A DNA stretch of 64,000 nt from an uncultured bacterium (lineage in GTDB: Bacteria > Desulfobacterota > Desulfobaccia > Desulfobaccales > 0-14-0-80-60-11), in contig CALEAV010000004.1 of the NCBI GenBank assembly GCA_937943575.1, positions 1 through 64,000 of the forward strand, given 5' to 3'. Below the pieces are notes generated by a model. It did no database searches. It saw nothing but the letters and a program-made list of their open reading frames with translations, and was not told the DNA's origin. Numbering within the stretch: the stretch's first letter is position 1; every line of letters starts with the position of its first letter. The position numbers and the translations under genes are program-made. This document shows, piece after piece, positions 6,797 to 8,666 of the stretch.

Positions 6797-7090
6797 ATGG
6801 TGGTGGCCGCCGCCCGGATCATCCTGCTCCTCCCGGAGAATCACTCCCTCAAGGGGAAGCGCAAAGTGGTGAAGAGCCTCATCGACAAGGTGCGGCACCG
6901 GTTTGAGGCCGCGGTGGCGGAGGTGGACGACCTGGACCTGTGGCAGAAGGCCCAGGTGGGGGTGGCCCTGGTGGGCAACGACGCCGGCCTCCTCACCTCC
7001 CGGCTGGAGCAGATCCTGCGCTTTGTGGAAGAGCAGCACCTGGCGGAGATCGTGGACTCCCAGGTGGAGCTCTGCTATCTGGAATCCTGA
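6797..7090 (+). CDS. DUF503 (YlxP-like) protein
   Basis: 97 residues matching the DUF503 family, which sits between infB and rbfA in many bacteria. The hallmark segments are LPENHSLKGKRKVVKSL near the start, VAEVDDLDLWQKAQVGVALV in the middle, and a C-terminal ARE-free helix with FVEEQHLAEIVDSQ. The ATG at 6797 follows AAGGAG by six bases and gives the family length; a longer frame from 6728 has no support. It overlaps rbfA by one base (TGATG). The biochemical role is not established; the location suggests ribosome- or RNA-related work. Confidence 0.88.
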   Translation: MVVAAARIILLLPENHSLKGKRKVVKSLIDKVRHRFEAAVAEVDDLDLWQKAQVGVALVGNDAGLLTSRLEQILRFVEEQHLAEIVDSQVELCYLES

Positions 7091-7458
7091 TGCGCCGCCG
7101 CGCCCCCGTCCCACGGCCGGTAAGGGTGGCCGGGCTCCTCAAGGAGACCCTGGCCACCATTCTCCTCACCAAGTGCGCCGACCCCCGCCTTGCGGAGCTC
7201 ACCCTTACCGCGGTGGAGATGACGCCGGACCTGAAGCAGGCCCGGGTTTATTACGTGGTGCGGCAGGGGGCCGACCGGGAACAGGTGCTGGCGGCCCTGG
7301 ACAAGGCCCTGGGCTTCATCCGGGGCGAGGTGGCCAAGGCCCACATCCTGCGCACCATGCCGGAGTTCCATTTCCTCCCGGATGACACCCTGGAGCGGGC
7401 CGCCCGCCTGGAGGCGCTGTTCAGGGAAATCGGCCGGCAGGAAGACCGAGGAGGCTAA
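7090..7458 (+). CDS. rbfA: 30S ribosome-binding factor RbfA
   Basis: 122 residues with the KH-like RbfA fold: an N-terminal helix (VAGLLKETLATILLTK), the strand segment LTLTAVEMTPDLKQARVYY, and the ending MPEFHFLPDDTLERAARL, all typical. RbfA binds the 30S subunit near helix 1 of 16S rRNA and is needed for late maturation. The ATG overlaps the DUF503 stop in TGATG, so the two are translationally coupled. In related clusters a DHH-type oligoribonuclease gene usually follows; here a different small gene does. Confidence 0.95.
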   Translation: MRRRAPVPRPVRVAGLLKETLATILLTKCADPRLAELTLTAVEMTPDLKQARVYYVVRQGADREQVLAALDKALGFIRGEVAKAHILRTMPEFHFLPDDTLERAARLEALFREIGRQEDRGG

Positions 7459-7480
7459 CGCCGGTTCACGGAGCAGGGGA

Positions 7481-7762
7481 ATGCCGCCGACGGCAGAGGA
7501 TTTCCGAAAGGAGCTCAACGAAATATTCGCCGCTTGCCAGGTTATTCAGCCGGTGGAGCGGGCCGTGCTCCCGACGCCGGTGTCCATTGAGATCACTTCC
7601 GGCGCACGGCACCGCAGGGCCGGAGGGAATCCCGGCCGGGACCATCGGAGGCCCGTGGGCTGTCAGGTGATGCGCCCGTGCATGGTGGACGGGGAGGTGG
7701 TGGTTCACGAGCCGCCGAGTCTGGGGAGCCGCTGCCGGGTGCCGCGGCCGCCCTCCCCGTAA
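7481..7762 (+). CDS. small protein with HRR-GG-PG-HR-P-C motif, unknown function
   Basis: 93 residues, not assigned to a named family. The N-terminal helix MPPTAEDFRKELNEIFAAC is followed by a strand (VSIEITSGA) and the core HRRAGGNPGRDHRRPVGCQVMR. It ends with MVDGEVVVHEPPSLGSRCRV. The core resembles a small uncharacterised domain I recall with the pattern H-R-x-x-G-G-Y-P-G-x-N-H-R-M-P-x-C-C-x-V-M; here Tyr, Asn, Met and the first Cys are changed, so it is a divergent copy. GGAGCAGGGGA precedes the ATG. It stands 22 bases after rbfA and 7 before truB, so it is co-transcribed with translation genes. Function should not be inferred from position alone. Confidence 0.6.
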   Translation: MPPTAEDFRKELNEIFAACQVIQPVERAVLPTPVSIEITSGARHRRAGGNPGRDHRRPVGCQVMRPCMVDGEVVVHEPPSLGSRCRVPRPPSP

Positions 7763-7769
7763 GCACCCG

Positions 7770-8666
7770 ATGGCTGTGGATGGCCTGCTCCTCATCGACA
7801 AGCCGGCGGGCCCCACCTCCTTTGAGGTGGTGCGCCAGATTCGGCGGGCCCTGAAGGTCCGCAAGGCCGGGCATCTGGGGACGCTCGACCCCTTTGCCAC
7901 CGGGCTTCTGCCCCTGGCCCTGGGGGCCGCCACCCGCCTGGTGCCGTTTTTGGAGGGACTGGACAAGACCTACCTGGCGGAGGTGGAGCTGGGGAAAGAG
8001 ACGGACACCCAGGATGCGACCGGCCGGGTGGTGGCGGAGCATCCGGTGGCGGTCAGCGAGGCGGACCTCCGGGCGGCGGCGGCCCGGTTCGTGGGCGAGA
8101 TTGAACAGATACCACCCCTGTATTCCGCCGTGCGCCACCAGGGGCGGCGGCTGTATGAGCTGGCCCGGCAGGGGATGGCGGTGGAGGCCCGCCCCCGGAA
8201 GGTGACCATCTACCGCCTGGAGATTAAGGAAATTCGGCTCCCCCGGGTGGTCCTGGAAGCCACCTGCTCCAAGGGCACCTACATGCGCACCCTGGCCCAC
8301 GATCTGGGCCGGGTCCTGGGCTGCGGGGGACACCTGGCGGCCCTGCGGCGCCTGGCGGTGGGGCCGTTCCCGGTGGACGAGGCGCTGCCCCTGGCGGAGG
8401 TGATCCATCACCCCGACCTGGCCCGGGAGCGGCTCCTTCCCCTGGCCGACTGCCTGCCCTTCCTGCCGGCGTTGCAGGTGGACGCCCGGGAGGCGGCGCG
8501 CCTGGCCCAGGGGCAGCCGGTGGCCGTGCCGCCGCCCGCCGGAGGCCTGAACGGCCGGGTGCGGGTGCTGAGCGGCGGCCGGCTCTTGGCGGTGGCGGAG
8601 TGGCGCCGGGATCCCCGGGGGCTGCTGCTGGCCCCGGTGCGGGTCTTCCCCCAAGCGCCGGAGTGA
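7770..8666 (+). CDS. truB: tRNA pseudouridine(55) synthase TruB
   Basis: 298 residues, normal length. The catalytic motif GHLGTLDPFATG is visible with the catalytic Asp at residue 40. KPAGPTSFEVV near the start and the later segment CSKGTYMRTLAHDLG are also characteristic. A PUA-like C-terminal domain covers about 215-298. The enzyme makes pseudouridine 55 in the T-loop of tRNAs and also acts as a tRNA chaperone. It starts seven bases after the preceding small gene and stands before rpsO, the common truB-rpsO order. Confidence 0.97.
   Translation: MAVDGLLLIDKPAGPTSFEVVRQIRRALKVRKAGHLGTLDPFATGLLPLALGAATRLVPFLEGLDKTYLAEVELGKETDTQDATGRVVAEHPVAVSEADLRAAAARFVGEIEQIPPLYSAVRHQGRRLYELARQGMAVEARPRKVTIYRLEIKEIRLPRVVLEATCSKGTYMRTLAHDLGRVLGCGGHLAALRRLAVGPFPVDEALPLAEVIHHPDLARERLLPLADCLPFLPALQVDAREAARLAQGQPVAVPPPAGGLNGRVRVLSGGRLLAVAEWRRDPRGLLLAPVRVFPQAPE

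Follow-up and report, generated by a model that had tools for sequence, protein, structure and literature searches.

The interval between rbfA and truB in this genome raises a simple question: what is a 93-residue protein doing in a place that, in some bacteria, is taken by nrnA, the gene of a DHH oligoribonuclease? The first-pass annotation of the window (the whole 64,000-nt stretch of DNA analysed here) had pointed to this open reading frame (ORF), likened its product to a small domain, as yet uncharacterised, that is marked by an invariant GG-x-PG-x-x-HR-x-P-x-C pattern and in which several normally fixed positions are here changed, and proposed that the domain had either been captured into the translation operon and turned to a new role or is decaying. 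The ORF does lie there, with RbfA (PF02033) and TruB (PF01509) on either side; it begins 22 nt after the rbfA stop and ends 7 nt before the truB ATG, and its translation contains the core HRRAGGNPGRDHRRPVGC. With HRR as our name for the domain family to which it belongs, the features of the locus are as follows.

7090..7458, plus strand: rbfA, left flank (PF02033, E 7.7e-27)
7470..7480, plus strand: ribosome-binding region of the HRR ORF (GGAG...AGGGGA), from the duplex energy with the 16S 3' end
7481..7762, plus strand: HRR-domain ORF, probably eroded, 93 aa, ATG start and TAA stop, from homology search and alignment
7601..7668, plus strand: domain core SGARHRRAGGNPGRDHRRPVGCQVM, the helix 2-helix 3 loop and the start of helix 3 (approximate coordinates, from the translation)
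7700..7759, plus strand: worn wing region and last strand (approximate coordinates, from the alignment)
7770..8666, plus strand: truB, right flank (PF01509, E 8.5e-55; TIGR00431)

Elsewhere in the window, a tRNA-Gly (CCC) at 1544-1619, the sole tRNA found in it, lies upstream of the rimP-nusA-infB operon.

An open frame of this length says little by itself: of 5000 dinucleotide-shuffled versions, 1071 (21%) also lacked an in-frame stop, a count that would suit a chance open frame in a GC-rich spacer, so that gene status has to be shown by homology and not by openness. Homology is plain. The ORF matches the HRR profile (40 rows, the window copy among them) over model positions 2-84, with 75.3 bits and E 6.2e-21; used alone as a protein query, it matched two genomes, G016 and G013, at E ~2e-19. 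These were the clear hits in a search of 99 genomes that gave matches in five (the window's own included, two weak), and both represent another genus of the window's family in which the HRR gene occupies the same slot before truB; their copies also share an insert with the window copy and fall with it in a supported clade, as described below. The likeness to a small domain bearing GGYPG-HRMP-C is therefore real, and homologues in the same slot of two relatives dispose of the concern that the frame might have no homologue in any relative; we reject a chance ORF, the probability of which is vanishingly small. By these sequence comparisons, the window ORF is a true homologue of a domain family of ~84 aa. 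It matched no Pfam family up to E 1, hence has no DHH domain, which separates it from the NrnA found in the same slot in some bacteria, and no HepT-like PF01934. Two further matches in the window's own genome, at E 0.02 and 0.05, were considered as HRR paralogues and taken as chance.

The family is rare and scattered. A pattern-based scan of one genome per species (84,980 species) recovered 40 HRR loci in many bacterial phyla and in archaea, and HRR in four viral contigs; three plasmid records carry it, one with in-frame stops, and phage records searched with the G013 protein gave no match. At E <= 1e-3, whole-genome profile searches found HRR in 9 of the 395 genomes from the window's phylum, of which five belong to its family; at E <= 1e-4 they found it in 1 of 398 genomes from the phylum to which a Sphingomonas belongs and in 6 of 400 from the phylum of a Chloroflexi genome. 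Of 20 genomes with known HRR, 18 have one copy and two have more. Because motif patterns led to the 40 genome loci, the near-invariance of 20 HRR positions, used throughout below, is inflated, and distant members found by profile (L117, L116, and L119) break 9-12 of the 20 and may nevertheless work. The main alignment, A3 (40 rows, ~84 positions), omits L046 and L050 (broken or partial), L051, L053, and L054 (near-copies), and L008-L010; a second alignment, A6, omits 11 of the 40 A3 rows. None of the members tested could be placed convincingly in a Pfam, NCBIfam, PHROGs, or PADLOC family: the window ORF, L004, L005, and L006 had no Pfam or NCBIfam match up to E 1, in PHROGs only the window ORF had a match, a weak one to phrog_4228 (E 0.014), and in PADLOC only L006 had one, weakly to Cas8b (E 0.031). 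At the level of search results, we did not find the HRR domain or an rbfA-truB hotspot described in the literature. As to mobile settings, an intact HRR gene sits inside a phage head-tail gene cluster (L052, 4989-5243; L053, 3761-4015), with Phage_capsid among the scanned neighbours, and a polyribonucleotide nucleotidyltransferase gene (L044, 6488-8005) lies near an HRR gene on a Tenericutes plasmid.

Structurally, the model of a canonical member, L014 (pLDDT 93.7, pTM 0.84), has the order H-E-H-H-E-E, which can be read as H1-S1-H2-H3-S2-W-S3, the same order as in winged-helix DNA/RNA-binding domains; unlike those structures, HRR bears its family signature, GGYPG-NHRMP, in a long loop that joins helices 2 and 3. 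The HRR sequence matched no solved structure, and Foldseek with the canonical model returned nothing at E <= 0.001 (best E 0.36). The top rows from VIA-align were mostly winged-helix nucleic-acid binders, with Z at most 6.0, below the tool's trust level (RctB, RepE54, CtsR, Z-alpha, and SelB). Judging from the predicted element order, the canonical HRR fold is likely a winged helix. A metal site built from the conserved H and C residues was considered by eye and dropped, since several HRR members have lost one of the two cysteines.

HRR mostly stands alone, in scattered bacteria and archaea. Pfam supports fusions to Pkinase (L013), Ion_trans (L024), DUF7662 (L116), and DUF6884 (L033, L048, and L038, the last as L106), and a DUF6884 fusion in L029 (as L095) is below the cut-off at E 3.6e-4. 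By eye, GIY-YIG-like parts can be seen in L116, L118, L119, and L033 (with a Pfam E of only 0.033 for L119), nuclease-like parts, for which Pfam gives nothing, in L020, L030, and L031/L107, and HRR behind a membrane segment and a coiled coil in L086. In the archaeal L013 (4944-6359), HRR precedes a kinase domain like those of PD-T4-6 models, and the C-terminal part of L013 resembles by eye that of L028. L024 (3771-5180) is an ion channel with the HRR domain at its C-terminal end, in ion channels often the site of ligand domains. No constant genome partner emerged from Pfam and PADLOC tallies of 108 neighbouring frames (151 listed, 44 left out, one added), which include scattered recombinases, integrases, AAA proteins, kinases, and others. 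DUF6884/YaaA proteins are fused to HRR in L029, L033, L038, and L048 and are its neighbour in L018 (five loci), although HRR is a domain separate from them and the window copy has no such partner. According to PMC11701544, DUF6884 has kinship with the DNA-binding YaaA, and its member YfjM interacts with DNA lesions; together with the DUF6884/YaaA association, this suggests that HRR may recognise nucleic acid. Since HRR is fused to, or adjoins, DNA-acting and effector domains, it could be the recognition part of conflict or defence proteins.

How such a domain may come to lie before truB is suggested by the slot in related genomes. Both rbfA and truB were present on the fetched stretches of 16 of the 22 genomes of the window's family, and between them we found the following.

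HRR alone: G000
MNT, then HRR: G013, G016
MNT-HEPN, some with a Phd-type antitoxin: G001, G008, G010, G012, G015
Phd and a ParE-type protein: G003
MNT, then a type II methyltransferase and a restriction enzyme: G004 (MNT truncated), G014
TolB-like proteins: G005, G009, and also G016
No gene seen: G002, G007, G011

Conflict-type cargo (toxin-antitoxin or restriction-modification) or HRR is thus present in 11 of the 16 resolved genomes; in the sister family, none of six resolved genomes has room for a gene between rbfA and truB. Examples tested with Pfam and PADLOC gave HepT-like at 2e-32, N6_N4_Mtase at 7.3e-54, REase_II at 3.8e-63, and ParE_toxin at 9.1e-12, and MNT was also confirmed in tested examples, the remaining slot contents being assigned by eye from likeness. 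Capture into a translation operon, as first proposed, is therefore supported and is broader than proposed, with two sites involved (the second is taken up below) and with HEPN/MNT, Phd-ParE-type, and restriction-modification genes entering the rbfA-truB site as well. As for nrnA, the slot of a same-phylum genome, G030 (L081), contains a frame of 325 aa whose translation looks by eye like a DHH protein; no DHH protein was seen among the 16 slots resolved in the window's family. The interval in G002 (237 nt) was searched for a relic of HRR: in local alignment it scored no better than shuffles (458 of 1000 as high), in global alignment 14 of 1000 shuffles scored as high, and the start context GGAATGCCGCCG alone is common to the two. 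Among other slot contents, the same type II methyltransferase/restriction enzyme pair stands directly before truB in two genera (L151, 1067-3036; L154, 1421-3387), and in G008 (L062, 818-1440) HepT is split over two frames beside an intact MNT, so that the toxin gene is broken.

The place of HRR in the slot is where HEPN or the restriction pair stands in other family genomes (HepT in G001, G008, G010, G012, and G015; the restriction-modification pair in G004 and G014), and in G013 and G016 the gene immediately before HRR encodes an MNT nucleotidyltransferase in which GS...SDLD can still be made out by eye, recalling the HEPN/MNT toxin-antitoxin pair (HepT/MntA; PMC7641770) that shares the slot. 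MNT and HRR might then form a two-gene conflict module, with HRR replacing the HepT toxin or another effector and with the window keeping HRR after the loss of MNT; between G013 and G016 both genes look constrained (MNT dN 0.17, dS 1.33; HRR dN 0.09, dS 0.65). However, MNT is the neighbour in only 2 of the 40 genome loci (L011 and L012; by eye), HRR being otherwise single or fused, and MNT may occupy the slot as a passenger with no link to HRR. HRR is also unlike HepT itself: PF01934 matches HepT of G001 (2e-32) and of G015 (3.6e-27) and does not match the window ORF, L004, L005, or L006, and the predicted HRR fold differs. We consider such a module very unlikely.

The window copy itself bears the marks of a gene that has lost its constraint. 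It belongs to a clade with L011 and L012, the HRR loci of G013 and G016 (support 95/89), and has, following its first helix, ~9 inserted residues that in A3 only these two also contain; its end branch measures 1.14, against ~0.36-0.41 for the others from the same fork. The changed fixed positions that had been remarked on are confirmed as 8 of the 20 near-invariant positions lost or changed (the median of the 40 rows is 1), a count equalled at the top only by L048, which is short and without the loop, and the variable positions of the window copy are ordinary. Near-invariant sites of the core have changed L>R, Y>N, M>R, and C>G; in the wing region and last strand, a deletion removes a near-invariant G-A pair, Y has become C, and the tail is proline-rich. 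Relative to the common G013/G016 state, the window copy is changed at 8 of 20 near-invariant and 37 of 62 other positions, which are not distinguishable from each other (p 0.20), whereas seven control members are changed at 2 of 119 near-invariant and 204 of 370 other positions (near-invariant changes, window versus controls, p 1.7e-6). Across its 39 substituted positions, GC at codon positions 1 and 2 went up 28 times and down twice; GC3 is 0.82 versus 0.28 in the G013/G016 copies, and codon-position GC (0.72/0.55/0.82) is less periodic than in coding genes of the window, such as truB (0.81/0.48/0.90). Folded with 28 relatives, the window ORF gives a low-confidence model (pLDDT 64.6 and pTM 0.49, against 93.7 and 0.84 for L014) in which the elements follow the canonical order; the insert may partly lower this confidence. 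With 8 of 20 near-invariant positions lost, we file the window ORF as a degenerate descendant and not as a working HRR member.

A different reading of the same changes is that the captured protein has acquired a new, still-selected function to which the altered core residues are adaptations. The frame is open, with no stop or frameshift, it has its own ribosome-binding site, and third positions are changed most (pS ~0.94-1.01 and pN 0.33-0.35), which implies that constraint held long before relaxing, a signal that is partly one of composition shift. Yet the core positions of the window copy change about as often as free ones, nearly all changes raise GC, the fold confidence collapses, and this form is kept in one of the 22 family genomes, with no second. 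A new function for the window copy, which is known from one genome, is in our view unlikely, and of the two outcomes first proposed, decay is the better supported here by the core losses, the GC-driven changes, and the low model confidence.

A precedent for a new role does exist within the family. Six of its 22 genomes have a single HRR gene, in every case within a translation operon: the site is rbfA-truB in three of them and nusG-rplK in the other three (G001, G008, and G015, of three genera), where the gene is a diverged paralogue. In all three the same six near-invariant positions are changed, yet the G001/G008 pair remains constrained (dN 0.23, dS 1.75), which points to a re-tooled form, and the new-role reading accordingly appears, on sequence grounds, to be a better fit to this paralogue than to the window copy. 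In the tree, the nusG-rplK copies form one clade (100/100), apart from the clade of the rbfA-truB copies described above, and a single clade for the two is not rejected by the AU test (p 0.326); one capture and two captures are both compatible with these data. The nusG-rplK loci (L092, 1463-1735; L006, 1399-1671; L125) have low GC relative to the host genes. The 548-nt nusG-rplK gap of G006 (L137) holds a different 116-codon open frame, so this site also takes other cargo.

If the window copy is eroding, its open frame may owe something to its position. The ribosome-binding region of the HRR ORF pairs with the 16S 3' end at -6.5 kcal/mol, whereas the 20 nt upstream of truB, whose start lies 7 nt after the HRR stop, reach only -0.6 kcal/mol, which amounts to almost no Shine-Dalgarno pairing; both are scanned values and not a measurement. 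No promoter-like site was found between rbfA and truB. Taken together, these signals suggest that the ORF may serve as a translated bridge to truB and, in the strictest form of the idea, that the frame survives only as a translated leader carrying ribosomes to truB, its amino acids being irrelevant. As the openness is not beyond chance, it shows no selection for such a leader; we regard the strict form as a tentative possibility, and one compatible with erosion.

We therefore think it probable that a small HRR-domain gene, from an unnamed family with a predicted winged-helix order, came in as cargo of an rbfA-truB exchange slot and that the ORF is what erosion has so far left of it, a reading that brings together the observed homology, the same slot in two relatives, the clade with those copies, the conflict cargo in the family's slot, and the core losses. 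Mechanistically, we posit that a small HRR gene would have arrived as cargo between rbfA and truB, and that the intact domain would serve conflict or defence proteins as their recognition module, binding nucleic acid or a ligand that resembles it. In the window lineage this recognition task would have been lost, GC-biased drift would have replaced core residues, and the frame may have stayed open partly since truB, with its weak Shine-Dalgarno, would receive ribosomes from the ORF 7 nt ahead.

For the family at large, one could go further and suppose that conflict systems use HRR as a so far undescribed domain for recognising nucleic acid and that it was recruited into the rbfA-truB and nusG-rplK operons, tying a defence or surveillance task to ribosome production, with the nusG-rplK form conserved and re-tooled and the window form failed or species-specific; we rate this as quite unlikely. 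The nusG-rplK paralogue offers a direct way to test for a function linked to translation. The context of the window ORF is more interesting than the 93-aa ORF itself. It reveals an exchange slot for conflict genes within a translation operon, where capture, replacement, and erosion can be compared at one place in 16 relatives, and a small domain without a matching curated model that is carried by kinase, channel, and DUF6884 proteins and by likely nucleases in bacteria and archaea. Because the domain is borne by such varied proteins, a name for HRR would give many orphan proteins an annotation and single out candidates for defence.
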